A stretch of 48,426 nt of DNA from Singulisphaera sp. (lineage in GTDB: Bacteria > Planctomycetota > Planctomycetia > Isosphaerales > Isosphaeraceae), in assembly GCA_027451445.1 (NCBI GenBank), contig DAIDJG010000572.1, forward strand, positions 1 through 48,426, given 5' to 3'. The notes beneath the pieces were generated by a model, which saw only the letters and a program-made list of their open reading frames with translations, did no database searches and was not told where the DNA came from. Both the position numbers and the translations under genes were made by a program. This document shows, in pieces, positions 12,091 through 24,421 of the stretch. The first letter of the stretch is position 1. Every line of letters begins with the position of its first letter.

Positions 12091-13025
12091 GGGGTGGCCT
12101 CGGAATCGGGTGTCGGGATCGCGACGGTCGATTGGCAGCGCGGGCACGTCCCCGTAGTGCCCTGAAACGAACGGCCACACTGCGGACAAAGCCCGGCGCT
12201 CTTCCTCAGTTTAGCAAGCGCGGCGCGCAATTTCGCGCCCTCGGTGGTGTCCGCGAAGCTGTCGGCCACGCGCTCGGCAAGCGCTGCGGTCTCCGGGCTC
12301 ACCGCCCCCGCGCGGACTCGTGTCTGGATCAGACCGTAGAGCCAGTGGACCAGCTCGGCGTCGAGGTCGTGAAGCGGCTCGCCGCGGAGGTGTTCCGTGA
12401 GGGCATCGCGTGCGTCGATCGCGGCCTTGGCGTTGCCTGCGGCCCGGGCGCGGTCGAGCTCTTGCTGGAGTGCATCGATCACGGCCTGTCGCGCCTCCGC
12501 GAGCTCATCGGCGAGCCGGGCTCGCTCGGGCGAGCCGGCGAAATCGCGCGCGAAAGCGACAACCAAGCGTTCGGCCTGTCCCCAGCGCCCGGCCTCGATC
12601 GCCTTGCGCGCCGCCGACGCGGCCGCTTCCGCGGGGCTCGGCGCGTGTGACACGACCGGACCACGTTCGAGCGCCGAGGCCAGGCGATTCAACGCGGGAA
12701 CCATGTGCTGCTCGATCAAATCAGCCGTCCGTTCATTGGCCTCGACGCCGTCGATCACCACGTCGATCAGCTCGGCGCTCGTGCGGAGAAGGTGCCCGAT
12801 GACCCACGCGGCGAGCGTCGCGCCGCCGATTGTCATGAGCGCCATGACGCCCATGATACGCCGTTCACTCCAGGTGAACCTGGCATCGGACAATAACGGT
12901 TGCGCCTGATCGAGGAACAGCGAGACGCCGAGGGAAAAGATCCCGAAGCGCACCAAAGGCGCCATCCGGACCAGCATGACGCGTGCGTCACGCAGGGCAT
13001 AGTATCGGGATTGCGGTCGACGCAT
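12087..13025 (-). CDS. membrane protein with C-terminal zinc ribbon, unknown function
   Basis: A 312-residue protein of unknown family. Two hydrophobic spans lie near residues 22-40 and 55-80; then comes a long Ala/Arg/Glu-rich helical region (about 110-270) that looks like a coiled coil or TPR-like array, and a C-terminal zinc ribbon CPQC...CPRC (about 285-303). The start at 13025 (MRRPQSR) is preferred over the upstream frame, which is not protein-like. It is the first gene of a two-gene unit with the next zinc-ribbon membrane protein (ATGA overlap). The complementary placing of the ribbons, at the end of one protein and the beginning of the other, suggests they meet in the cytosol; this is inference. 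Confidence 0.65.
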   Translation of the reverse strand: MRRPQSRYYALRDARVMLVRMAPLVRFGIFSLGVSLFLDQAQPLLSDARFTWSERRIMGVMALMTIGGATLAAWVIGHLLRTSAELIDVVIDGVEANERTADLIEQHMVPALNRLASALERGPVVSHAPSPAEAAASAARKAIEAGRWGQAERLVVAFARDFAGSPERARLADELAEARQAVIDALQQELDRARAAGNAKAAIDARDALTEHLRGEPLHDLDAELVHWLYGLIQTRVRAGAVSPETAALAERVADSFADTTEGAKLRAALAKLRKSAGLCPQCGRSFQGTTGTCPRCQSTVAIPTPDSEATP

Positions 13026-13224
13026 GATGCGAGCACCAACGATGCGCGATCGGTCGGGTTTGAGAACAGACGCCCGCGCGGATCTCGCCCCATTATGCCC
13101 GCAAAGCCGGATAACGGCTATCGAGAGGGAAAGTAATGGCGGACAGGGAGGCGGTGATCGGAGCACGATCGTTCGCCCGCCCGCATCGGCCCTCCGGCCC
13201 CTGCTCTCCCGTTTCGCCTAAAGT

Positions 13225-13413
13225 TCACCCCGGGCCCTGACCGTGGCCGCCTCTGCTTTCACGCCCGCGAGAAACAGGCTGGCCAGCGTGATCTGGGGCA
13301 TCGCTCGATATCGCGTCCCGATCATCCGGCGAAGCCACTTCGTCCGCCGACGCCTTGACGGTATCCGGTCCTGTCTTGGCCTGGTGCGGTGACACCGCAC
13401 AAGATCCGCTCAT
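13225..13413 (-). other. in-frame continuation after UGA (possible selenoprotein C-terminus)
   Basis: The frame of the 29-aa peptide gene continues past its TGA (13414-13416) for 62 codons to a second TGA at 13225-13227. The first residues after the stop are MSGSCAV, so the joined sequence would read GVPT-(UGA)-MSGSC, a place where a Cys or Sec close to another Cys makes chemical sense. The rest is hydrophilic and probably disordered. The alternative is a separate ORF starting at ATG 13413, or plain non-coding sequence. Confidence 0.35.
13384..13400 (-). promoter_or_regulatory. SECIS-like hairpin after the UGA codon
   Basis: Read leftwards, 13 bases after the TGA comes a perfect 7-bp stem GTGCGGT/ACCGCAC closing a 3-base loop GTC. 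The first loop base is G, and 20 bases lie between the UGA and it. Bacterial SECIS elements are described as a stem-loop directly behind the UGA with a G at the start of the loop about 16-37 bases away, so the geometry fits. Confidence 0.35.
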
Positions 13414-13503
13414 TCAGGTAGGCACTCCCATGCGAGGCAAGACCCAGCGGTTGAGCACAAACCAAAGCGCCACCACCGCGAGGGGCAGAAGGAATTCCTG
13501 CAT
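13414..13503 (-). CDS. small single-span membrane peptide (29 aa to UGA)
   Basis: A short gene, ATG 13503 to TGA 13414. AAGGAG lies seven to eight bases upstream, an almost ideal ribosome binding site, and a strong promoter box is 73 bases upstream. The peptide is a single membrane span followed by a basic turn: LLPLAVVALWFVLNRW then VLPRMGVPT. It resembles short membrane peptides seen next to thiol or metal redox genes, but I cannot name the family. Because it shares its promoter type with the DUF4395 and RND operons it probably belongs to the same response. The frame goes on after the stop; see the entry for the continuation. Confidence 0.6.
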   Translation of the reverse strand: MQEFLLPLAVVALWFVLNRWVLPRMGVPT

Positions 13504-13575
13504 CACCGCTCTCCTTCTCATGACCGTGGAACCCTCTCGGGCCGCTATGCTTATGTGGGACTAAATTCCTGGTTT

Positions 13576-13604
13576 ACTATATTCCCGACTTATTATGGGG
13601 TCAA
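13576..13604 (-). promoter_or_regulatory. regulon promoter box A
   Basis: Leftward TTGACC (13599-13604), 17-base spacer, TATAGT (13576-13581), 73 bases before the 29-aa peptide gene. It is one of three boxes with the same -35, -10 and spacing, and shares spacer positions with the others (AT at spacer positions 3-4, A at 9, T at 11). Confidence 0.7.
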
Positions 13605-13605
13605 G

Positions 13606-14089
13606 CCAGGGGCCTCGCTCGCCCGATAATGAGGAAGGGATCGGGAGAACCGGTCGGGCGGATGATAACGGACGTTCGCGTGAGGCCGGGATGCTGCTCG
13701 GCGTGGGCATTCAATCTGGCGTCGGCCCGCGCTCGTCCGGCGACCTCGAAGTGACGGTGATCCGGTGCATCATGCCGCGGCGCGGCGAAGCGAACACGTG
13801 CGGACGGCGACTCCGTGGATACGACTGGGGTCGCTTCGCCGGTTGCGGCCAGTCGATCTGAGTCTTGCGGGCTCCTGGTTCGGCCTGGGCGAATGCGTCG
13901 GGCGACGACGGAAGTCTCAATCCTGCATCCCGCCGGCCGCGGGAGAGGGGCTTCACGCGGCGATTGTACCAGGAGCCGAGGCCCGGGGTACGGGCGATGA
14001 CGATCGTCACCTCTCGACCGACACGGGAATGATTCCACTGGGACGCGCGACGGATCGGGCCGGCGTCTATGGGAGACAGGAGTGAAGCG
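13606..14089. other. 484-base intergenic region before tolC-like gene
   Basis: No frame reads like a protein on either strand. It separates the leftward box A promoter from the rightward TolC gene and must contain the TolC promoter, but I see no clear -35/-10 pair. Confidence 0.4.
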
Positions 14090-15640
14090 ATGGCGATCGT
14101 TGGCCTTCATCCGGGATGGTTACTGGCCCTCGCCCTTGTGGACCAGACGGCCCCGTCCGGCAGGGGAGTCTCGCAACCACTTCCACCGCCTCCCGTCAAC
14201 CAGCCGGCGCTTCCGAAACCCTTGCCGTACCGCGGAGGGACTTCGCTCTCGGAAAGCGACGGCTCGCGGGCGAGCCCGTCGGGATCGCCGCCCGCTACCG
14301 AGCCTGTTCGAATGCCGGCGGGCACGGTGGCACGGACCGAACACCCATCGCCGGACCCGCGTCAACCCTCTGTCACATCCGGGGTCGGTCTGACCACACT
14401 GATCGGCATGGCCCTGGAATCGAACCCGGACCTCCGCTCGGCCTCGGAACGGGTGCAGATCGCCGATGCGACGCTCGCGCGGGCTCGCGCAGAGTTCTTC
14501 CCGACGCTCTCCGTAGCGGAAGCTTTTTTGGATACGAATATCGCCGGACTGGCTTTCTTCCTGGAAGTCAATCAAAGGCGGTTCAGCCTTAACCAGAATG
14601 TCAATAACCCCGGGTTCGTCAACAATTTCAGCACGTTCGTAACGCTTCAGCAGAACGTCTATGCGGGGGGACGGCGGAGCGCCGAAGTGCTCTCAGCCGA
14701 AGAGCAACGCGCGGGTGCACGATTCGCCCTGGAAGCCGCCAGGAACGAACTCGTCTACCGGGTGGCCGAGGCGTTCTACCGCCTGCTCCAGGCCCGGGAC
14801 CTCGTGGCGAGCCGATCGGCCGCCGTGCACCAGGTCGAACGCCATCTCGACCTGGTCCGGTCCCGCTACGAGAACGGTACAGCCGTCCGGTCCGACGTCT
14901 TGACCGTCGAGGTGCGCCAGGCCGAGGTCCGTGAAGGGCTGATCACCGCGTCCAACCAGCTCGAGCTCGCGTGGGCGGTGCTCGAGAACGTGACGGGATG
15001 TCGCCTTCCGCACGTGCTCCCCGAACGCGACGAGCCGGCTCCCTGGTCGGGGCATGTCGGCGCCGTCGAGGCGGCGATCGCGGAGGCGGTGGCCCAGCGG
15101 CCGGAACTGGGAACCTCGTTGAGCGAGACTCGCGGGGCCGCACACGACGTGGAGGCGACCCGGGCTGGGAAACGGCCGCGCGTAGATTTTATCGGCAACT
15201 TCAGCACGTTCGACATCAACGCCGGCAGTGGAGGTAATGGCCTCTTCGTCGGGCTGATCGCGTCCGTGAATTTGTTCGACGGGCACAGGACCAAGGCGCA
15301 GGTGTCTCGAGCTTCGGCCAGGGTTCGCGAGCTTCAAGCCCGGCACCAGCGCCTGCTCATGGACATCGAACTGGAAGTGCGCCGGGCTTACCTGGCGCTT
15401 CAGGACGCCGAGGGACGACTCCAGGTGGCCGGCCGCGCCATCGCCCAGGCGAATGAGAGCGTCCGCGAGATCGAGAACCGTTACGAGGACCAGAAGGCAA
15501 CCATCACACAGTTGGTGGACGCCCAGGTTGCGGCGACGAACGCCCGGATCCGCCGCTCCAACGCGGCGGCCGAAGTGGAGATCGCACGCGCTGGGTTGGA
15601 ACGGGTCGTCGGGCGGCTTACGCAGATCCTTGCGCAGTGA
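14090..15640 (+). CDS. TolC family outer-membrane efflux channel
   Basis: A 516-residue outer-membrane factor. After a short hydrophobic N-terminus (LLALALVDQ, weak signal peptide) comes a Pro-rich linker to about residue 95, then two OEP repeats, each with a long helix pair and a strand pair: ALESNPDLRSASERVQIADATLARARAEFFPTL-type helix starts, FVTLQQNVYAGGRR, and the second copy ending with NRYEDQKATITQLVDAQ. Such proteins form a trimeric tunnel through the outer membrane and periplasm. The start at ATG 14090 has AGGAG eight bases upstream; an in-frame ATG at 14069 is less likely. It lies near the RND pump and adaptor genes but on the opposite strand, and is the natural outer-membrane partner for them. 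Confidence 0.88.
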   Translation: MAIVGLHPGWLLALALVDQTAPSGRGVSQPLPPPPVNQPALPKPLPYRGGTSLSESDGSRASPSGSPPATEPVRMPAGTVARTEHPSPDPRQPSVTSGVGLTTLIGMALESNPDLRSASERVQIADATLARARAEFFPTLSVAEAFLDTNIAGLAFFLEVNQRRFSLNQNVNNPGFVNNFSTFVTLQQNVYAGGRRSAEVLSAEEQRAGARFALEAARNELVYRVAEAFYRLLQARDLVASRSAAVHQVERHLDLVRSRYENGTAVRSDVLTVEVRQAEVREGLITASNQLELAWAVLENVTGCRLPHVLPERDEPAPWSGHVGAVEAAIAEAVAQRPELGTSLSETRGAAHDVEATRAGKRPRVDFIGNFSTFDINAGSGGNGLFVGLIASVNLFDGHRTKAQVSRASARVRELQARHQRLLMDIELEVRRAYLALQDAEGRLQVAGRAIAQANESVREIENRYEDQKATITQLVDAQVAATNARIRRSNAAAEVEIARAGLERVVGRLTQILAQ

Positions 15641-15739
15641 GGAATGCTTTATCGTCGAGGCCCGTCGCGCGCGGCTCCTACGCCCGCGCGCCGATTTGGA
15701 AGCAGTGGCCGGGGTCGTGCGTCTGGGGTCGCCATGCAC

Positions 15740-16300
15740 TCAAACGGTATTGCGGTGCGGACGGTAAGGCACTTCGCACATTTCGCAGCCGAACAGCCGC
15801 GAGTGGAGCCAGCAACCTACACAGAATCCCAGGACGGCTTCAAGCCAGGTCAGGATGAAGCAAATGGTGACGACACCGATGATCCACGCGTTATCGACGT
15901 GAAACAGCCGCATGCCCAGGCAAAGGACGCCGAGGGACCCACCGAGAATCCAGGCGAATCGTTTGGGTTGCGCGGGCTTCCAAACCGGTCGGATCCGCAT
16001 GGTCAACAACGTGCCCAGGATGCCAGTCGGACTCAAGGGCGTCAGGCCCATGGCGGCGGCGCTGAACATGTCGAAGATGACAAAGGGACCGACGTAGATC
16101 ACGGGGTCAACCTGCGGGGCAGCGATAAGCAGGAAGATCGTTGTGCCCGACAAAACGTTGAGCAGCCCGGCGCGCGCTCGCGTCGCGGTCTCGTTGACGC
16201 GCAGGCCCGTGATCTGGGGCGTCGCCTGACCAATGCGCCACCAGGGAGTCGTCAAAAACGTGTGCGATTCGCGGCGGCTCTCTTCCACGACAGAACTCAT
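15740..16300 (-). CDS. DUF4395 family integral membrane protein
   Basis: A 186-residue membrane protein of the DUF4395 type, shown by RVNETATRARAGLLNVL at its start and the C-terminal TWLEAVLGFCVGCWLHSRLF. Four membrane spans lie near 44-62, 68-86, 115-131 and 138-158. Four cysteines form two CxxC motifs, C160/C163 at the end of the last span and C172/C175 just after it; the first is the family hallmark, the second looks additional. DUF4395 genes are often found with thioredoxin-like or sulfur-transfer genes, so a thiol redox role is possible. The ATG overlaps the stop of a 67-aa gene (ATGA) and has GGAG upstream; both are transcribed from promoter box B. Confidence 0.82.
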   Translation of the reverse strand: MSSVVEESRRESHTFLTTPWWRIGQATPQITGLRVNETATRARAGLLNVLSGTTIFLLIAAPQVDPVIYVGPFVIFDMFSAAAMGLTPLSPTGILGTLLTMRIRPVWKPAQPKRFAWILGGSLGVLCLGMRLFHVDNAWIIGVVTICFILTWLEAVLGFCVGCWLHSRLFGCEMCEVPYRPHRNTV

Positions 16301-16500
16301 ACATATTCTCCGAGTGCAAGATGCTCCTTCGAGACGGCCAGGTGACGGCAGCCGGCCACGTTGGCGGCTGTCTCGCTGGGACCGTCCACGCCTCGGTCGT
16401 GACCCGTGCCGTTGGGCAACTCCGCCCGCCGCCAGGCGAGCGCGTCCCTTTCGACGTTCACGACGAGCGAGCCGTACCCCTGTGGGCACGAGCGCCTCAT
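16297..16500 (-). CDS. small hypothetical protein coupled to DUF4395 gene
   Basis: A 67-residue ORF, ATG 16500 to TGA 16297, not recognised. Three things argue that it is real: GGAG/AAGG sequence just upstream of the ATG, very GC-rich third codon positions in line with neighbouring genes, and an ATGA overlap with the DUF4395 start. It begins about 75 bases downstream of promoter box B, so it is the first gene of that operon. It has two cysteines (C5 and one near residue 51) and no membrane span. Confidence 0.5.
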   Translation of the reverse strand: MRRSCPQGYGSLVVNVERDALAWRRAELPNGTGHDRGVDGPSETAANVAGCRHLAVSKEHLALGEYV

Positions 16501-16581
16501 GTGCCTTCTCCGACCGGTTGCCCGGAAGTCTCTGGACGCGGCGAAGGATCGTGGTATACAATTCTACCAGAGCACTAATTT

Positions 16582-16610
16582 ACTATACGGTCAACTAGAT
16601 ATGCGGTCAA
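16582..16610 (-). promoter_or_regulatory. regulon promoter box B (between DUF4395 operon and arsR)
   Basis: Leftward TTGACC (16605-16610), 17-base spacer, TATAGT (16582-16587). A second TTGACC lies inside the spacer (16589-16594). The box reaches to four bases before the ArsR start codon, so a repressor bound here would control both the leftward operon and its own gene. Confidence 0.72.
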
Positions 16611-16614
16611 TCCC

Positions 16615-16968
16615 ATGCCCGTGACGATCCCCGACGAGATCCTGGAGCGGATGGCTGAGAAGTTCCGAACGCTCGGCGACCCAACGCGCCTGGCGATCCT
16701 CCGCGCCTTGCTGGGCGGGGAGAAGAGCGTCGGCGTCGTGGTCGCCGAGACGGGTCAGAACCAGGCAAACGTCTCGAAGCACCTGAAGCTGCTGGCGGAG
16801 GCGGGGATGGTCCGTCGTCGGAAGGAAGGGCTGCAGGTCTTCTACGTCGTGGCCGATCCGCTGGTCGAGAGCCTCTGCGAGCTGGTCTGTGGAACGATCC
16901 TGCGCGAGGCCGAGGCGGACGTCGAGCGCGGCCGCAAGATCATGAAGAGCTGGGGACGTCGCGGCTAA
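16615..16968 (+). CDS. ArsR/SmtB family winged-helix repressor
   Basis: A 117-residue ArsR-type regulator: RTLGDPTRLAILRALL at the start, recognition helix QNQANVSKHLKLLAEAGMV, and wing RRRKEGLQVFYVV. The metal-binding ELCVCD motif of classical ArsR is absent from the DNA-binding helix (VGVVVAETG instead). Two cysteines, C88 and C92, sit in the C-terminal dimer helix (LCELVC), a place where some members sense thiols or metals. No clear ribosome binding site is seen; the leader would be short. Its gene starts next to promoter box B, and identical boxes precede two more leftward units, so it is the likely regulator of all three. Its TAA stop coincides with the target of a MITE-like insertion. 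Confidence 0.88.
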   Translation: MPVTIPDEILERMAEKFRTLGDPTRLAILRALLGGEKSVGVVVAETGQNQANVSKHLKLLAEAGMVRRRKEGLQVFYVVADPLVESLCELVCGTILREAEADVERGRKIMKSWGRRG

Positions 16969-17115
16969 GAGTCTGTCCCAATAGTGCGAGAAGCGTGGCA
17001 ATGGGGACTGGCTCCGGACGTCTTCGGACGGTGCCAGTCCCCATTGCCACGCTTCTCGCTGCGCCGGAAAAGCAGTCCCCCTTTTCCGGCGCAGCTTCAC
17101 TTCCGGGACAGACTC
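16969..17115. mobile_element. MITE-like element (IS5-type ends)
   Basis: A 147-bp non-coding element with inverted ends GAGTCTGTCCC / GGGACAGACTC, flanked by TAA on both sides (16966-16968 and 17116-17118), the 3-bp TNA-type duplication of part of the IS5 family. Inside are two perfect inverted repeats: 27 bp (16986-17012 with 17033-17059) and 12 bp (17060-17071 with 17082-17093). The left TAA is the stop codon of the ArsR gene. No transposase is present, so it would need one in trans. The hairpins may now act as a bidirectional terminator between the convergent ArsR and flavoprotein genes. Confidence 0.75.
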
Positions 17116-17142
17116 TAAGCCGTGCGCCGGCACGGCTCTGCG

Positions 17143-18402
17143 TCACGTCGCGTAGAGGTTCGACATCACTTTGAGCCCGAGGTCCATCGCCTGCCAGGCG
17201 AACCCTGCGTGGAAGGGCTCGCCGCTACCGAACCGCCATGGCAGGTACAGCCCCAGCAACGTCTTGCCCGCCCTCCAGACTGGGGAAACCCCAACCTTGT
17301 AGTGCTCGGCATCCTCGGTGTTAACCGCGACCGGCCGCGCGGGATCGCCGGTGTACTTCAGCGGCACCTGGGCGAACGTGGCCTTGTTGAGCTCCTCCAT
17401 GACGCACATGCTCATCGGCTCGAAATTGACCTCGGGCTTCCGCCCCGCGATCTCAGCGGCCATGTGGTCGGCGGCGGCGTCGGCCTGGAGCAGCGCCAGG
17501 AAGGCCTGTTTGATCGGGAAGTCCGCCGCGTCGCCGACGGCAAAGATGTCCCCGCGGCCCTTGACCCGCCGAGAATCCGGTTCGACGCGGAGAAAGCCGC
17601 GGTCGTCCGCGGGCAGGCCGGGGAACCGCTCCGCCGCGATGTAGGGTGGGAACCCGACCAGCAGGTCGTACGGTAGCCGCTCCCCATTCTGGTACTCGAC
17701 GGCATTCGGCCCAACGGATGTGACGACGAAGCCCTTGTGACCCTCGATGCCGCGCTGCTCGAACTCGTCGGCGACCACGGTATTGAGGCGCGGGCCGAAG
17801 GCCTGGATGTAGCCTTCCTCCATCGTGGTCCACGTCAGGTCGACCGCCTCGCGCAGTCCACGCTCGCGGAGCCGGGTGTCGAGCATCAGCACCAGCTCGT
17901 AGAGCGGGCCGGAGCAGCGGTTGTTCGGCGGGACGACGAACAGGACCCGCTGCCGGTTCCCGTCCCGCGCTTTTTCTTCGACCCGACCCAGGCCCTCCCG
18001 CAGGGCGAGCATGTCGTCGGGGGTCCAGAGCGTCAGGGCGTGTTCCTTGAAGCCGGGGACCTCCTCGGGGCGCATGGCGGCGCCGGTGGCGACGACGAGG
18101 TAATCATACCGCAGCTCCTTCCCGCCGGCCAAGACGCGCCGATTGTCGGGGTCGACTTGCTCGACCGAGCCGTGGACGAACTCGATGTGCTTGCGTTGCG
18201 TCGGCCGGGACAACGGGATCTTGAAGCGCTCCGGATCCTCGCCGAAGGGGATGTAGATCGTGTTCGGCTTGAACAGGAAGTAATCGCGCTCGGAGACGAG
18301 CGTGAGGTCAACCGCCTGGCCGAGCTTGTGCCTCAGATAGAACGTCGCTTCCAGGCCGCCGAACCCGGCGCCCAGAATCACCACTCGCGGACGCGCTGAC
18401 AT
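17143..18402 (-). CDS. sulfide:quinone oxidoreductase-like FAD-dependent oxidoreductase
   Basis: A 419-residue flavoprotein of the SQR/NDH-2 superfamily. The FAD-binding VVILGAGFGGLEA is at the N-terminus, a second Rossmann unit starts near residue 150 (RVLFVVPPNN), and GDIFAVGDAAD near 284-293 is the FAD-binding aspartate motif. It has only two cysteines, C163 in NNRCSGP and C333 in SMCVME, which match the places of the redox disulfide pair of SQR; the third SQR cysteine is missing. The likely role is oxidation of sulfide or another low-potential thiol, with electrons passed to quinone at the membrane. It follows the RND gene after 57 bases in the same direction and is probably the last gene of that operon. 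Confidence 0.8.
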   Translation of the reverse strand: MSARPRVVILGAGFGGLEATFYLRHKLGQAVDLTLVSERDYFLFKPNTIYIPFGEDPERFKIPLSRPTQRKHIEFVHGSVEQVDPDNRRVLAGGKELRYDYLVVATGAAMRPEEVPGFKEHALTLWTPDDMLALREGLGRVEEKARDGNRQRVLFVVPPNNRCSGPLYELVLMLDTRLRERGLREAVDLTWTTMEEGYIQAFGPRLNTVVADEFEQRGIEGHKGFVVTSVGPNAVEYQNGERLPYDLLVGFPPYIAAERFPGLPADDRGFLRVEPDSRRVKGRGDIFAVGDAADFPIKQAFLALLQADAAADHMAAEIAGRKPEVNFEPMSMCVMEELNKATFAQVPLKYTGDPARPVAVNTEDAEHYKVGVSPVWRAGKTLLGLYLPWRFGSGEPFHAGFAWQAMDLGLKVMSNLYAT

Positions 18403-18459
18403 GACATGCTCCTTTTCAGTTCATCGTTTGGCCTAGTCAACGGATCAACATCGCCGGCG

Positions 18460-21400
18460 TCACGGAATCGGGGTCGTCTCGGCACTCTCGCCGCTCGCCA
18501 CGTCGCCGGAGTGAAACAGCCAGTACGTCACCGGGATCACGAATAGAGTGAAGATCGTCGAGGCCAGGAGACCAAAGATCAGCGACCAGGCAAGGCCCGA
18601 GAAGATCGGGTCGAGCGCGATCGGGATACTCGACAGCATGGCTGCCCCGGCGGTTAGCAAGATGGGCCGCATCCGCACGACGCGGCTCTCCATGATCGCG
18701 TCGAACAGCGGCCGTCCCTTCTTCACCGACTGGCCGATGAAATCAACGAGGATGATGGCATCACGGGTCACGATCCCAGCCAGCGCGATCATGCCGATCA
18801 TCGCCGTCGCGGTGAACAGCACCGGGTCGGCGTAACCACCGACGACCTGCCCGCTCAGCGCATTGAGCATCCAGAACCCAGGCATCACCCCAAGCACGGT
18901 GAGCGGGATGGCGAGCATCACGACCAGTGGGATGAGGAACGAGCCGGTCTGCATCACGAGGATCACGTAGATCATCACCATCGCGGCCGCGAAGGCGAGC
19001 CCGAGGTCGCGGAAGACGTCGAGCGTGATCTTCCACTCGCCCTCGCCGCTGAACCCGACGCGGATCCCCTCGGGAACCGCCCAGGCCACTCCGCCGCCGT
19101 TGTGAAGGAACGTCCGCTCGGCTAGCGAACGCGGCTTCGCGTCGGACACCCAACCGTGCCCCCGAGCAGCTCCTGGCGCGGGCGTGCCATCCGGCTTCCG
19201 GTCGAAGCTGACGTCCAGAACGCACTCCGCCGGCGTGCGTCCCAGCGTCTCGGCGGTCACGTAGACGACGCGTTCCAGGTTCTTGTGGTAGAGCGTCTGC
19301 CCGACCCGTGCCTCCTCCCACCGGCCCAGCTCTGAGAGCGGCGTGAACTGTCCCATCCGGCCCTTGACTCGAATCGCGGCCAGGTCGTGGCGGCTGGAGC
19401 GGACGTCGCGGGGCAGCCGCACCTCGACGCGGAGCGGGTTGCGCTCGCCGGCCATTCGAACCGTGCCCGCCTGGCCTCCCGAGAGAACGAGTTGTAAGGT
19501 CCGGCCGATCTCGTCGACCGAGACCCCGTTGAGTGCCGCCTTCTCCTGGTCGGTGATGAACACGAGTTTCTGGGCCGCCGCCTCGACCGTGTCGTCGACA
19601 TCCACCACACCCGGTTCGGCGCCAAGGCGGCGGGCCACGACTTCGGCGGCGGCGATGAGATCGTCGTAAGAGTGATCTGGCCGGCCGGAGACCTCTGCCA
19701 CCAGCGAGGCGAGCACCGGCGGGCCGGGAGGCAGCTCGACCACCTTGAGCCGGGCTTTGTGCCGCTCGGCCAGAGCGGCCAGGCCATCGTGCAGCCGCAG
19801 AGCAATCGCGTGGCTCTGAGCGGTGCGGTGCTTCTTGCCGACGAGGTTGACCCGAACCTCGGCATTGTGCGGCATCCGCCGCAGGTAGTAGTGCCGGACC
19901 AACCCGTTGAAGTCAATCGGACTCGGCAGTCCGACGTAGCTGACATAGTCGGTGACCTCCGGCACCCTGGCCACCTCGGCCTCAACCTCGCGGACCAGCG
20001 CGTTGGCACGCTCCAGGGTCGATCCCTCATCGAGGTCAATCACCAGCAGCAACTCGTTCTTGTTATCGTATGGCAGCATCTTCAGAGGCACGACCCGCAA
20101 GGCCGCCAGCCCCGCTGCCGCGGCGGTCAGCAGCGCGATCACCAGCAAGAACGAGAGAGCGGCTCCCTTGGAGCTGATTAGCGGCGCCATGAGCGGCCGG
20201 AACAGCCGGTACAGAAACGTCCGACGGATGGCCTCGACGTCGTCCCCGTCATGATCCGTGCCGTGCCCCTCGCGTCCGCCGTGAGCGAACTTCTTGTGCA
20301 GCACCTGGTAGGCGAGCCAGGGAGTGATCGTAAACGCCACCACCATCGACATCAGCATCGCGACCGGGACATTCAACGCCATCGGGGCCATGTACGGACC
20401 CATCATCCCGGTGATGAAGAACATGGGCAGAAAGCTCACGATCACCGCCAGCGTGGCGCTGATCAGTGGGGGCCGGATCTCGGCCACCGCCTCGAGTACG
20501 ATGTCGCGCGTGGCACGGCCGCGCATCTCAAAGTGGCGGGCGATGTTCTCGACGTCGACGATCGGATCGTCGACCAGCAGGCCGAGCGAGAGGATCAGGG
20601 CGAATAGCGTCACGCGGTTGATCGTGTACCCGAAGAGCAGGTTTACGCCGAGCGTGAGGCCGAATACCACCGGTACCGCGACGGCGACGATCATCGCCTC
20701 GCGCCAGCCCAGGCTCAGCGTCAGGAGAGCGATCACGATCACAATCGCAACCCACAGGCCCTCGACTAACTCGTTGACCTTCTCGTCGGCCGTCAGCCCC
20801 GAGTTTCTCGTGATGACCAGCTCCATCCCGCTCGGGATCACGTCGCGACGGAGTGATTCGGCCGCCTTCAGCACAGCCTCGGCGACATTCACCGCGTTGG
20901 TGCCCTTCTGTTTGGCGATCGCCAGCGTGACGGCGGGCCGTGATGCTTCGAGGCCGGACGCCGTCATGGCTGATTGCTCGTGGCGCCCGACCTCCGTACC
21001 TGGGAATCCCGCGGGGGCCTCGAAGCCCCGGGCCGGACCCCAGCCGTGTCGGACATAGCTGACAACCTCGTCGGGGCCATCGCGCACCGTCGCCACATCC
21101 TTCAGGAAGACCGGGCGGTTCGCGAACACGCCCACGACCAGCTCGCGAAGTTGCTCAGGGCGCTCGACCGCGATGCCCCCCTCGACTCGGACCACCGCGT
21201 CGTTGCGCGTGAAGTCGCCCGCCGGGTGGGTGACGTTCGCCCCCTGGAGGGCCTGCTGGACTTCGAGCGGGCTCATCGCGTACGCCTGGAGCCGGTCCGG
21301 CTGGAGATCCACCCGTACCGTGCGCGGTTCGCCACCGACGACATAGGCCCGCGACACGCCCGGTAGAGCGGACAGGCGCTCGATCACTTCCTCGCCGACC

Positions 21401-21915
21401 CGCCGGAGCGTAAAGCCGTCCCCATCGGCGCCGGTGAGGGTCAGCGTAACGACTGGAACGTCGTCGATCTCTACCGGCTTCACGACCCACCCAGTGACCC
21501 CGGGTGGGATGGTGTCCTGGTTCTCGCTGACCTTCTTGAAGAGCTTGACCAGGCTTCGCTCCCGGTCCTGCCCGACGTAGAACCGCACGGTGATGACGGC
21601 CTGGTTCTCCCGGGCCATGCTGTAGACGTACTCCACCCCATCAATCTGGTAGAGGATCTTCTCGAGGGGAGTCGCGGCGAGCTGCTCGACTTGCTCGGCA
21701 GAGTAGCCGGGCATGCTGACCATCACGTCGGCCAGCGGGACGACTATCTGCGGATCCTCCTCTCGGGCTGTGACGAGCAGGACGGCCAGCCCGATCAGCA
21801 TCGATACGACGATCAGGATGATGGAAAAGTTGTTGTCCAGAAAGACGTGGACGATGCTGTTGAGAAAATCGTGCCGCTTGGGCTCTGTGGCCCGGGCCGG
21901 ATCGTGCTCGATCAT
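18460..21915 (-). CDS. RND family efflux permease
   Basis: A 1151-residue inner-membrane pump of the AcrB/HAE or metal-type RND superfamily. It has the N-terminal span near residues 22-45, first periplasmic domain (VMVSMPGYSAEQVEQLAATPLE), a membrane block with the proton-relay motif GLLVDDPIVDVENI, a second long periplasmic loop and a final membrane block ending in FGLLASTIFTLFVIPVTYW. A His/Asp-rich cytosolic loop (HGGREGHGTDHDGDD) lies before the second half and could bind metal. The MIEHDPAR start at 21915 is chosen because it overlaps the adaptor stop as ATGA and has GGAGGGAG upstream. It works with the adjoining adaptor and a TolC channel. The substrate cannot be read from the sequence. 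Confidence 0.9.
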   Translation of the reverse strand: MIEHDPARATEPKRHDFLNSIVHVFLDNNFSIILIVVSMLIGLAVLLVTAREEDPQIVVPLADVMVSMPGYSAEQVEQLAATPLEKILYQIDGVEYVYSMARENQAVITVRFYVGQDRERSLVKLFKKVSENQDTIPPGVTGWVVKPVEIDDVPVVTLTLTGADGDGFTLRRVGEEVIERLSALPGVSRAYVVGGEPRTVRVDLQPDRLQAYAMSPLEVQQALQGANVTHPAGDFTRNDAVVRVEGGIAVERPEQLRELVVGVFANRPVFLKDVATVRDGPDEVVSYVRHGWGPARGFEAPAGFPGTEVGRHEQSAMTASGLEASRPAVTLAIAKQKGTNAVNVAEAVLKAAESLRRDVIPSGMELVITRNSGLTADEKVNELVEGLWVAIVIVIALLTLSLGWREAMIVAVAVPVVFGLTLGVNLLFGYTINRVTLFALILSLGLLVDDPIVDVENIARHFEMRGRATRDIVLEAVAEIRPPLISATLAVIVSFLPMFFITGMMGPYMAPMALNVPVAMLMSMVVAFTITPWLAYQVLHKKFAHGGREGHGTDHDGDDVEAIRRTFLYRLFRPLMAPLISSKGAALSFLLVIALLTAAAAGLAALRVVPLKMLPYDNKNELLLVIDLDEGSTLERANALVREVEAEVARVPEVTDYVSYVGLPSPIDFNGLVRHYYLRRMPHNAEVRVNLVGKKHRTAQSHAIALRLHDGLAALAERHKARLKVVELPPGPPVLASLVAEVSGRPDHSYDDLIAAAEVVARRLGAEPGVVDVDDTVEAAAQKLVFITDQEKAALNGVSVDEIGRTLQLVLSGGQAGTVRMAGERNPLRVEVRLPRDVRSSRHDLAAIRVKGRMGQFTPLSELGRWEEARVGQTLYHKNLERVVYVTAETLGRTPAECVLDVSFDRKPDGTPAPGAARGHGWVSDAKPRSLAERTFLHNGGGVAWAVPEGIRVGFSGEGEWKITLDVFRDLGLAFAAAMVMIYVILVMQTGSFLIPLVVMLAIPLTVLGVMPGFWMLNALSGQVVGGYADPVLFTATAMIGMIALAGIVTRDAIILVDFIGQSVKKGRPLFDAIMESRVVRMRPILLTAGAAMLSSIPIALDPIFSGLAWSLIFGLLASTIFTLFVIPVTYWLFHSGDVASGESAETTPIP

Positions 21916-23054
21916 GATCTCCCTCCCGCCGGCGCCGCGCCGGTGCCCCGTGGCAGGACGACCCGTTCGCCCTCGCTCAGGCCCGAGAGGACTTCGCAGC
22001 CCTCGTCGAGCGTTCGGCCAAGCTGGACCGCCCGGCGTTGGATCCCGCCTTTTTCGACGACGTCGACCTCCGCGAGCTGGCCAACGCGCCGGACGGCCTC
22101 CGGGGGGACGACGAGCACGTCTTCGTCCTCCAGCGGGATGAAGATACGGCCGAACATGCCGCTGTAGACGCCAGTGGGACAGGGCCCGGTGACCTTGACC
22201 TGGAACGACCGACTCTCGGCCTGGGCCTCGGGGACGATTTCGCTGACCGTGGCGTGGCAATCGTAGCCGAGCGTGTCCAGCCGCGCGGGGAGCTGTTGAC
22301 CGACCTTCAATTGCAAGGCCAGTGACTCTCGCACCGTGGCCACCATCTGCATGCGCGACGGGTCGTACATCATCACCATCGTCTGGCCGGGGGCGACGGT
22401 GTCGCCTGCGTTGACCTTCTTGTCGATGACCCGCCCCGATATGGGGGCGCGGATGGTGGCATACGACTCGACGATCCGGGACTCCTCGACGCCCCGGCGG
22501 GCGCGCTCCAGTTCCGCCTTCGTCGTCCGCATCGCGGTCTCCGCCTGGTCGAGCTCACTCTGAGTGATCGACTCCCGGGTCCGCAGGCGCCGAGCCCTCC
22601 CCAGGTCGATTTCTGCCTGGTCGTACTTTGCCCTGGCCGCAGTCTCGGCGGCGAGGGCCTGTTCCATGCGCGACTTGAGGTCCGCCTTATCCAGGACGAC
22701 CAGCACCTCGCCCTGCTTGACGTCCTGCCCTGCCTTGACCCGGACCTCCTCGACGCGCGCGAGGATCTTGGACGCGACCACTGCCTCGTAGATGGCGCGG
22801 ATCGTGCCGACCGCGGACTCTCGTCGCGGCTGGCGGATGCGCTTGACGACCCCCACGTCGCGCTCCGATGGCACGGCAGGCCCCTGCGCCTCGGCGGGAG
22901 ACGGGCGTACCTTCACTTTGGGCTGGAACGCCCCGGCCAGGGCGAGCATCAGGGCGACAATTCCTGCCGTGAACAGCGCCAAGAGCGCAAGCGTCACGAC
23001 GACCCGCCCAACCCTTCGGGACATCCCGGCGTGTGGCCTCGCCACCATGGTCAT
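21912..23054 (-). CDS. HlyD/MFP periplasmic adaptor subunit of RND pump
   Basis: A 380-residue adaptor. One N-terminal span (VVVTLALLALFTAGIVALML) anchors it; then the first half of the lipoyl-like domain (AVVASKILARVEEVRVKAGQDVKQGEVLVVLD), an Ala/Glu/Arg coiled-coil hairpin (about 150-210), the second lipoyl half (ATIRAPISGRVIDKKVNAGD), beta-barrel, and a membrane-proximal domain. It joins the RND pump to the TolC channel. Start at ATG 23054 is chosen for a GGAGG about seven bases upstream. First gene of the leftward adaptor-pump-flavoprotein operon, 118 bases after promoter box C. Confidence 0.9.
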   Translation of the reverse strand: MTMVARPHAGMSRRVGRVVVTLALLALFTAGIVALMLALAGAFQPKVKVRPSPAEAQGPAVPSERDVGVVKRIRQPRRESAVGTIRAIYEAVVASKILARVEEVRVKAGQDVKQGEVLVVLDKADLKSRMEQALAAETAARAKYDQAEIDLGRARRLRTRESITQSELDQAETAMRTTKAELERARRGVEESRIVESYATIRAPISGRVIDKKVNAGDTVAPGQTMVMMYDPSRMQMVATVRESLALQLKVGQQLPARLDTLGYDCHATVSEIVPEAQAESRSFQVKVTGPCPTGVYSGMFGRIFIPLEDEDVLVVPPEAVRRVGQLAEVDVVEKGGIQRRAVQLGRTLDEGCEVLSGLSEGERVVLPRGTGAAPAGGRS

Positions 23055-23171
23055 GAGCCACCTCCCTCGTGGTAGTCCGCCCGCCCGTGGGAACACCCTG
23101 GGGATCAGGGCGACGGCTACGGCGGCTGGATGACATCACGTTCTCGAGTGTAACGAAACACCCACTGTAAT

Positions 23172-23200
23172 ACTATATTCCAAATTAGTCATTGAGTCAA
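23172..23200 (-). promoter_or_regulatory. regulon promoter box C
   Basis: Leftward TTGACT (23195-23200), 17-base spacer, TATAGT (23172-23177), upstream of the RND adaptor gene. The last five spacer bases plus the -10 (GGAATATAGT) are the same as in box A. Confidence 0.7.
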
Positions 23201-23254
23201 CTTGAGGGCGGGGTGTTTCCCGACGCCGCCCTCACGCAAAATCGCACCATCCAA

Positions 23255-23290
23255 CAAAAAACCCCGACCGTGCGTTTCCGCACGTCGGGG
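23255..23290 (-). terminator. rho-independent terminator of the LRR gene
   Basis: CCCCGACCGTGCG (23262-23274) pairs with CGCACGTCGGGG (23279-23290) with one bulged base and a 4-base loop; read leftwards it is followed by six T. It ends transcription from the LRR gene before the RND promoter. About 230 bases without a gene lie between it and the LRR stop codon. Confidence 0.8.
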
Positions 23291-23518
23291 CAGCCATAGC
23301 GAGTGAGTTCGCCCGTCGCGAGCGAACCCTCATTCTTTCAGTATAGCCGGGGCGATGGTTTGTGCATAGGTACCACTTCTGAAAAAGGACCGATCGATCC
23401 CGGGGGGGCCTTGGTCCCCGAGGGAGCCGGTGTCGGAGGGATCTTCGTTCACGAAACATTTGTTCCGACCGCTTGCCCCCCATCCGACAATCGAAGCGCC
23501 TCGAACCGCACCTCGCAT

Positions 23519-24421
23519 TCAATCCTGGATCGATTCGAGGATGCCGTCTCGAGATTGGCGCAACGCGTTGATCTCTTCAATCGGGATGCGCGATCCGGTC
23601 ACTTTGAGCTGCCGCAGATGGGGGAGCGTACTGAGGGCGGAGACGTGCCGCACGTGGGTAAACGCGAGGTTAAGTGTCTCAAGAGTCCTCAATTTCTCGA
23701 GGTATCCGAGCCCTTCGTCCGAGATATCGCACGCCTGGAGGTTCAAACTTCGCAACCCGGATAACGCGGCAATTGTCTTCAGCCCCTTATCCGTAACCCG
23801 GGTGTTGAGCAAACTCAGCTCGCGCAACGCGTGCAACGAGGCCAGGTGGGCGAGCCCATCGTCCGTGATCCTCGTGGCGTCCAGGTTCAGCGACTCGAGC
23901 TGTGACAGGTCGCCGAGGTGGGCAAGTCCATCGTCGGTGATGCGCGTGCTACCCAGGTTTAAGCGCGTGAGCTGGGTGAGCGTGCCGAGTCGCTTCAAGC
24001 CCTCGTCGGTCACGGCCGTTCCGAATAATGAAAGTGCGCGCAAGTTCTTGATCCGAGCCAGTGACTGGATTCCACCGTCGGTGACGCGCGTTCCGTTCAG
24101 GTTGAGGACGCGCAGCGCGGGTAAGGATTCGAGATGACGCAAGCCTCCGCTGCCAGCCGACGTGCCACTCAGCGTCAGCACCCGGAGCTCGTCGAGGCAC
24201 TCAAGCGTTTCGAGGTCATCGTCGGTGATCTCCGCCAGCGTCAGGTTCACATTGACCACAGGTCCTCCGGGCAACGAACTGTCGACGTCGTAACGGCCGC
24301 CGACTCGCTCGATGAGGGCAATGGCCCGCTCTCGCTCCGAACGTAGGCCTCCTGTCACGATTTCCACAACGACGATCACGGCGAGCAGCAGGAAACCCAA
24401 GACGACCCAACGCCGAATCAT
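23519..24421 (-). CDS. leucine-rich repeat protein, membrane-anchored
   Basis: A 300-residue protein: N-terminal membrane anchor or signal (WVVLGFLLLAVIVVVEIV), a short linker, then about nine leucine-rich repeats of 23-24 residues from about residue 70 to 290. The repeat unit reads LxxLxxLxLxxTxITDDGLAHL, the cysteine-containing/LRR_6-like subtype with a variable T in the turn. Such proteins bind other proteins outside the cytoplasm and are abundant in planctomycetes. Single gene with its own terminator; it diverges from the glycosidase gene. Confidence 0.85.
   Translation of the reverse strand: MIRRWVVLGFLLLAVIVVVEIVTGGLRSERERAIALIERVGGRYDVDSSLPGGPVVNVNLTLAEITDDDLETLECLDELRVLTLSGTSAGSGGLRHLESLPALRVLNLNGTRVTDGGIQSLARIKNLRALSLFGTAVTDEGLKRLGTLTQLTRLNLGSTRITDDGLAHLGDLSQLESLNLDATRITDDGLAHLASLHALRELSLLNTRVTDKGLKTIAALSGLRSLNLQACDISDEGLGYLEKLRTLETLNLAFTHVRHVSALSTLPHLRQLKVTGSRIPIEEINALRQSRDGILESIQD

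Follow-up and report, generated by a model that had tools for sequence, protein, structure and literature searches.

Background

ArsR control of sulfur genes is already known in kind, and the sulfane-sulfur-responsive ArsR repressors SqrR, BigR, SoxR and sHdrR are among the closest described systems. SoxR of Hyphomicrobium is described as a polysulfide-responsive repressor with Cys50 and Cys116 as sensor residues (PMC10451225). The present work concerns a stretch of 48,426 nucleotides from Singulisphaera sp. (assembly GCA_027451445.1, contig DAIDJG010000572.1; hereafter the window, meaning the whole stretch), in which three leftward promoter-like boxes, named A, B and C, lie around a gene for an ArsR/SmtB-family regulator (Table 1). 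We consider it likely that the boxes are promoter-operators of one ArsR regulon, mostly for reactive-sulfur handling, which includes a tiny membrane selenoprotein.

Three promoter-like boxes, rare in their own genome

The boxes displayed the pattern TTGAC(C/T)-N17-TATAGT, with the coordinates, strand, hexamers and 17-base spacer given by an earlier reading of the letters alone (the sequence-only reading), which had described three identical boxes of a probable ArsR-controlled regulon. They were similar rather than identical, the -35 hexamers being TTGACC, TTGACC and TTGACT, respectively. The listed spacer agreements (AT at positions 3-4, A at 9 and T at 11) were present, and GGAATATAGT was common to boxes A and C. 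Box B, said to touch the ArsR start codon, was indeed close to it, lying within the arsR leader when seen from the other strand, but the two were not in contact, 4 bases separating the box end from the ATG at 16615.

The own genome (10.88 Mb, 622 contigs) was searched with the reversed pattern as control. Five exact matches to TTGACY-N16-18-TATAGT were obtained genome-wide (A, B, C and one each on contigs 470 and 71) against three for the control, and three of the five fell within this 10-kb stretch, which is more than chance, as claimed earlier. When the spacer consensus was added and up to three mismatches were allowed, seven matches were found versus one in the control. The contig-470 box had the same spacer as A to C and preceded a rhodanese gene, with a SoxB-like gene (TIGR04486, 301.8 bits, cut-off 550) after it, so that the regulon set exceeds the three boxes of the window. 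The contig-71 match (C71:32812-32840), with a presumably FHA-like open reading frame (ORF) behind it, was set aside as chance because it lacked the spacer agreement. A terminator-like hairpin (23255-23290) was noted by eye directly upstream of box C, and an Rfam search of positions 12500-24200 gave no match at gathering score.

Conservation of the boxes and of their gene context across the family

The sample comprised 45 genomes of the source genome's family, among which 34 harbored an arsR orthologue (E<=1e-20). The spacer-bearing box, with up to two mismatches, gave 32 matches in 22 of the 45 genomes versus one control match; four of the 32 were the seed boxes (A, B, C and contig 470). The same gene classes adjoined 29 of the 32 matches (25 of 28 without the seeds), namely arsR, the small selenoprotein gene, genes for the RND adaptor and pump, and genes of the SQR-like (sulfide:quinone reductase-like), rhodanese/YgaP, DsrE, SoxB-like and DUF4395 types; the YgaP-like gene at L107 and the adaptor at L096 were recognised by likeness only. 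The scan of related genomes proposed in the sequence-only reading thus returned a rare box that keeps company with the same genes, not one scattered genome-wide without link to them. The spacer was kept across genera, and sites equivalent to box C preceded adaptor-RND genes in other family genomes.

A site scoring above 10 bits occurred within 200 bases upstream of arsR in 28 of the 30 orthologues examined, six of these 28 sites having been among the 28 used to build the scoring matrix (box A, at 23.2 bits with this position weight matrix, was itself a training site). Four pattern matches (G000:C536, G023:C7, G023:C9 and G024:C616) were kept out of the site model, and G023:C7 preceded an SQR-like gene. 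A 29-column sequence profile, built from 46 sites and applied at E<=0.05, retrieved 36 places in 27 of the 45 genomes, all adjoining regulon-type genes; 32 of the 36 were training sites. The new matches preceded a rhodanese-YgaP gene (G003:C563), an SQR-like gene (G019:C53) and a DUF4395 gene whose product was 77% identical to that of the window (G017:C112, where the 7 kb of contig read contained no arsR), or lay between arsR and the small selenoprotein gene (G035:C266).

Boxes and regulator co-occurred. Pattern matches were found in 21 of 34 genomes with arsR versus 1 of 11 without (p = 0.004), and profile matches in 26 of 34 versus 1 of 11 (p = 1.2e-4, the profile being partly trained on arsR-upstream sites). 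In the sole arsR-negative genome with a profile match, G003, an arsR stub adjoined the site. This stub (L238, 3363-3461) encoded the first 33 residues only and stood beside the box and the rhodanese-YgaP gene. The three boxes probably belong to a conserved gene set under one ArsR repressor, their predicted ligand.

The boxes could also be common operators of some regulator different from the adjacent ArsR, ArsR binding being a prediction only and G020 carrying a match without a detected arsR. This explanation is quite unlikely, given that the site precedes arsR in 28 of 30 loci and tracks the presence of the gene, and that G003 still has an arsR stub.

A probable loose palindrome over both promoter hexamers

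Comparison of the site profile with its own reverse complement gave a single clear centre (r = 0.82, against 0.44 for the second best), a correlation inflated because the pattern and the matrix used to find the sites already favour symmetric ends. Positions unconstrained by the pattern still paired, position 13 being C in 26 and position 20 being G in 22 of 28 sites, and 2.72 of 7 spacer pairs were complementary over 46 sites compared with 1.85 (standard deviation, sd, 0.17) after shuffling. When the 70 nt ahead of each of 30 arsR genes were searched freely for 26-bp palindromes, 7.37 of 13 pairs were obtained against 6.89 in shuffled sequences (sd 0.15; highest of 300 shuffles 7.30). Box C alone had 8 of 13 complementary pairs. 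The sites likely form a loose palindrome of 26 bp, approximately ACTATATnnCC-AT-GGnnATATAGT. One of its ends falls on the -10 hexamer (TATAGT) and the other on the ACT within the -35 hexamer (TTGACT), so that a bound dimer would cover both hexamers.

On the arsR side, the site lay in the leader and usually ended a few bases ahead of the start codon, with a distance of about 130 bases in two genomes. A candidate promoter for arsR itself was recognised by eye upstream of the operator (Table 1), and similar promoter-like sequences occupied the same place in many leaders of arsR orthologues (by eye, no statistics).

Were the boxes simply strong promoters of the ordinary sigma-70 type, resembling each other through the promoter consensus and having no regulator in common, their hexamers and 17-base spacing would look as textbook-like as they do, boxes A and B could be the poor palindromes that they are, and the palindrome could be moderate overall. 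Such promoters would hardly be limited to five exact matches in 10.9 Mb or keep a spacer conserved across genera, nor would they be expected to co-occur with arsR and to adjoin the same gene classes in 25 of 28 family matches once the seeds are excluded. We regard this explanation as very unlikely.

A very small, probable membrane selenoprotein behind box A

The sequence-only reading had box A start a gene for a 29-aa peptide. The gene behind the box stands, but the peptide does not: the TGA at 13414-13416 is very probably read as selenocysteine (Sec), and the 29 residues are the front of a selenoprotein whose read-through residues are conserved. Translation would start at the ATG at 13503, with AAGGAGAG ahead of it, or at an alternative in-frame ATG at 13521 (start and membrane segment were assigned by eye). 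In the relatives found behind boxes, the reading continued past the TGA with similar residues (GVPT-U-M[SG]xxC), and twelve aligned read-through forms shared invariant W20, L23, W26, LP28-29, GVPT-U/C-M at 32-37, C41 and P45. An in-frame UGA aligned with Cys in homologues, a feature of bacterial selenoproteins, was present.

The window protein had no match in Pfam or NCBIfam (release 20) at E<=1, and two relatives gave sub-threshold Pfam matches only (PF04602, E 0.014-0.14; PF17272, E 0.16). The small protein was found in 29 of the 45 family genomes. A wider genome collection yielded 64 loci, nearly all from metagenome-assembled records, which belonged to Planctomycetota, Desulfuromonadales and other 'Deltaproteobacteria', Spirochaetota, Acidobacteria, Verrucomicrobia and Myxococcales. 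Weak members from G206, G213 and G334 lacked the Cys five residues past the Sec position. Small size, and a UGA that passes for the stop codon of an ORF of about 29 aa, make the family easy to overlook.

Sec coding was supported by several tests. Among the 55 loci of other records (those of the 64 unmatched to family genomes, the taxonomic family of each locus being unchecked), the codon at the Sec place was TGA in 43 and TGC in 12, and nothing else. In the family, tRNA-Sec (called at 94-96 nt and >=62 bits, shorter hits below 54 bits being taken as other tRNAs) was detected in 28 of 45 genomes and SelA over its cut-off in 30 of 45. Counting either as Sec machinery, and only the codon of the main gene copy (which excludes the additional Cys copies of G016-G018 and the decayed fragments of G018), machinery was present in 22 of 23 genomes with TGA versus none of six with TGC (five) or TGG (one) (p = 1.5e-5). 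In G031, which lacked machinery, the main copy carried the TGG and a further in-frame stop. The window genome encoded both tRNA-Sec (71.7 bits; tRNA-SeC(tca) by ARAGORN) and SelA (519.5 bits) on contig 494.

The same association was observed across the phylum. The protein occurred (E<=1e-6) in 38 of 392 sampled genomes, 36 of them outside the family. For the 28 read from loci, SelA (E<=1e-55) was found in 19 of 20 TGA genomes and in none of eight TGC/TGT genomes (p = 2.9e-6). With eight genomes read afterwards (seven TGA, one TGT), the totals outside the family came to 24 of 27 versus 0 of 9 (p = 2.3e-6).

A hairpin resembling a selenocysteine insertion sequence (SECIS) followed the codon. Published bacterial SECIS (bSECIS) limits are a loop of 3-9 nt, a stem of 4-16 bp, a G in the first two loop positions, a distance of 16-37 nt from the UGA and a minimum free energy (MFE) <= -7.5 (PMC13188914). 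The window hairpin lay within them, with -15.6 kcal/mol for the 40-nt stretch folded. A search restricted to 4-9-bp stems and 3-8-nt loops found hairpins of bSECIS type after the codon in 47 of 52 TGA forms versus 3 of 12 TGC forms, and mean z against codon-shuffled controls was 1.48 and 0.11, respectively (p = 1.6e-4). Stem sequences varied between lineages while pairing was kept.

If the TGA were a true stop, the 29-aa peptide would be complete, with either no further coding downstream or an independent ORF from the next ATG, and an ATG does directly follow the TGA in 33 of 43 TGA loci. The other ten show CTT, ATC, TTG, CTG, ATA, CTC, GCG, GGA, GTT and GGT, which argues against a separate downstream ORF, and the two-ORF reading was rejected on this variety. 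Since genomes without Sec machinery mostly have TGC or TGT and one open frame, and a hairpin at fixed distance occurs mainly in TGA forms, a true stop is hardly tenable.

The selenoprotein gene was also linked to the site. Eighteen of the 24 family copies examined had a site above 14 bits upstream, 16 of them above 15 bits (several of these sites being in the matrix training set). In 17 of the 18, TTG stood at the far end of the site, hence the promoter points at the selenoprotein gene.

Several further observations were made around this gene. Second, Cys-containing copies (TCLSG) stood beside arsR at L085 (G016), L086 (G018) and L098 (G017), the TGA copy being also present, and a decayed further copy in G018 (L282) still had TGA at the Sec place. 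In other lineages, an ArsR-type gene was recognised downstream of the small selenoprotein gene at L195, L207, L215, L217 and L231, by eye and, for L195, L217 and L231, through family scans; L217 also had an upstream operator-like site. A cytochrome bd-I-like gene was often beside the small Sec/Cys protein (L181, L183, L184, L204, L226, L228 and L232), recognised from one BLAST cluster and from PF01654 matches (Pfam) at L204 and in 5 of 94 neighbour ORFs. These 94, of 142 neighbour ORFs in other records, gave a diffuse picture with Pfam: ArsR-type helix-turn-helix, cytochrome bd-I-like and histidine-kinase domains in five each, HlyD-type in three and YgaP-like in two, counts that are rough because the ORFs were picked mechanically.

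Genes of the probable regulon

Regulon members in the window were the small selenoprotein, DUF4395 and adaptor-RND-SQR-like genes (Table 1). A 67-aa ORF (16297-16500, reverse strand), previously counted as an operon gene with DUF4395, had no Pfam match and no homologue in the compared loci, and is probably not a gene. In other family genomes the box preceded genes for rhodanese-YgaP (L108, L092, L090), DsrE (L083, L071, L102, L081, L106) and SQR-like proteins (L104, L240). In one genus it drove His-rich, possibly exported ORFs (L070 8537-9211, L072 8150-8713, L074 7124-7792), the two of which that were scanned (L070, L072) had no Pfam match. A MITE-like insert (16962-17122) was observed between arsR and the SQR-like gene, with 25-nt inverted ends (84%) that flank two shorter inverted repeats of 31 and 15 nt.

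Table 1. Coordinates of the boxes, genes and other features discussed in the text, in window positions
Feature	Position	Strand	Details
Small membrane selenoprotein gene	13225..13503	-	29 aa with one hydrophobic segment, Sec, 62 aa
SECIS-like hairpin	13384..13400	-	GTGCGGT-GTC-ACCGCAC; apical loop 20 nt after UGA; 7-bp stem, loop GTC
In-frame TGA, very probably read as selenocysteine	13414..13416	-	Aligned residue Sec or Cys in nearly all relatives read
Box A	13576..13604	-	-35 TTGACC 13599-13604; -10 TATAGT 13576-13581; operator-like 26-mer 13576-13601; putative promoter of the selenoprotein gene
TolC-type outer-membrane factor	14069..15640	+	May work with the RND pump; not preceded by a box
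DUF4395 membrane protein, 186 aa	15740..16300	-	Pfam PF14340, 70.3 bits
Candidate arsR promoter	16533..16560	+	TGGACG-N16-TATACA; upstream of operator; by eye
Box B	16582..16610	-	-35 TTGACC, -10 TATAGT; operator-like 26-mer 16582-16607; putative promoter towards DUF4395
ArsR/SmtB-family regulator, 117 aa	16615..16968	+	PF01022, 47.5 bits (cut-off 22); NF033788, 80 bits (cut-off 55)
FAD oxidoreductase, related to type III sulfide:quinone reductase, 419 aa	17143..18402	-	NF049943, 132.9 bits (cut-off 525)
RND permease	18460..21915	-	PF00873, 473 bits
RND periplasmic adaptor (HlyD/CusB type)	21912..23054	-	TIGR01730, 197.8 bits
Box C	23172..23200	-	-35 TTGACT, -10 TATAGT; operator-like 26-mer 23172-23197; putative promoter of the adaptor-RND-SQR operon

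The ArsR regulator and its possible signal

The window ArsR had two cysteines only, Cys88 and Cys92 (CxxxC), both invariant in 29 of 29 aligned sequences and, judging from the family fold, presumably both in the last helix. It scored far below the equivalog cut-offs of BigR (45.4 bits versus 155) and TsoR (40.1 versus 115), and had no cysteine at SoxR positions 50 and 116. In the match to PDB chain 6o8l (query 17-89 to chain 29-101), which we take to be SqrR with the cysteine numbers that we likewise assume, the offset placed the first sensor cysteine on Leu29. The window ArsR may work like the SqrR, BigR and SoxR sensors; by the features tested it does not belong to their subfamily.

A reactive-sulfur signal was preferred because the box targets, the pump and the His-rich ORFs apart, are sulfur genes. 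Alternatively, metals or metalloids (Hg, Cu, As, Cd) could be the signal, bound in the dimer at a thiolate site that the CxxxC of each subunit forms, as may be suggested by the generic metalloregulator score (80 bits, cut-off 55), the RND-adaptor-TolC genes and the His-rich box-driven ORFs. Box targets with known domains were mainly sulfur-related (rhodanese, YgaP-like, DsrE, SQR-like and SoxB-like), and the score with the metal-sensor equivalog CmtR was 48.6 of 150, far below its cut-off; a metal signal appears rather improbable.

Observations at odds with a single sulfur regulon

Several results weigh against one ArsR regulon with a Sec-containing output. Three of the 32 pattern matches (G000:C536, G023:C9 and G024:C616) had no adjoining match to a reference protein, two of the 30 arsR orthologues (L028 and L032) had no site, eight of the 34 arsR genomes had no profile match, and in G020 no arsR reached E<=1e-20 despite a pattern match. 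Six of the 24 family copies of the selenoprotein gene lacked a site above 14 bits, and outside family records only 2 of 55 loci had one above 15 bits. Support for the palindrome is moderate, not strong: spacer pairs at 18 arsR-upstream sites reached 2.22 versus 1.76 (sd 0.27) in shuffled sites, the site was the best or joint best palindrome of the free search in only 12 of 30 arsR leaders, and boxes A and B singly had 4 of 13 complementary pairs. Concerning Sec coding, the exception in the family test, G007 (TGA without machinery), carried a decayed TGA copy, and the second, decayed copy in G031 (L281) still had TGA at the Sec place. Three genomes of the phylum sample in which SelA was not detected also had TGA forms, G167 (59% complete), G094 (90%) and G334 (84%). 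Finally, the RND pump and the His-rich ORFs of one genus would also fit metal stress.

A possible mechanism

We infer ArsR binding, repression, the inducer and the biochemical role of the selenoprotein as follows. An ArsR/SmtB-type repressor would sit on the loose 26-bp palindrome over the -35 TTGACT and the -10 TATAGT and block RNA polymerase when no inducer is present, and would regulate its own gene through the same site in the arsR leader, usually right ahead of the start codon. The inducer is likely a sulfane-sulfur or other thiol-reactive species that modifies Cys88 and Cys92 near the C-terminus. The modified ArsR would then be released, allowing synthesis of enzymes for sulfur oxidation and transfer, of an efflux pump and of the small membrane selenoprotein. 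The latter, with one hydrophobic segment and GVPT-U-MSxxC, would probably act as a membrane-tethered selenol/thiol pair, five residues apart, which passes or reduces sulfur equivalents together with rhodanese.

We give even weight, for and against, to the wider proposal that an unnamed, multi-phylum family of very small single-helix membrane selenoproteins (GVxT-U-MSxxC) is an output of CxxxC-ArsR under sulfur stress, with its Sec serving in membrane sulfur relay or persulfide reduction beside rhodanese and the RND pump. The analysis adds a very probable selenoprotein family and assigns it to a probable sulfur-stress regulon, for which it names a candidate operator. It offers a starting point for the role of a minimal membrane selenol in sulfur metabolism, and for the stimulus sensed by an ArsR with two near-terminal cysteines four residues apart.

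Comparison with known systems

The combination of this operator, a CxxxC ArsR and a selenoprotein target was not found in the literature searched, and a literature search on the motif 'GVPTU' returned as its sole match an unrelated gas-vesicle paper. No counterpart was seen in the 2026 table of 119 selenoprotein families, judged by names and motifs and not by sequence (PMC13188914). TsoR and the Tso selenoproteins (TsoA, TsoB and TsoC) likewise join, by name, an ArsR-type regulator with selenoproteins, including a rhodanese-like one (NCBIfam; PMC13188914). The Tso motifs (LULAxC, UxxxxU and NEPxGxxU) differ from GVPTUMSxxC.

The operon flavoprotein matches type III sulfide:quinone reductase (NF049943) over residues 6-340, well under the cut-off; the window gene is open, without internal stop. 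With CmtR, CzrA and other metal sensors of the SmtB/ArsR group, the window ArsR shares the fold and a sequence relation (the top-scoring PDB chains, which include CzrA, reach 41-44 bits) but differs in cysteine arrangement and gene context. With SqrR, BigR, SoxR and sHdrR it has in common the ArsR fold, two conserved cysteines and targets that handle sulfide or thiosulfate. It differs from them in that its cysteines are four residues apart, with no counterpart of SoxR Cys50, and in that its regulon includes a selenoprotein and an RND pump.

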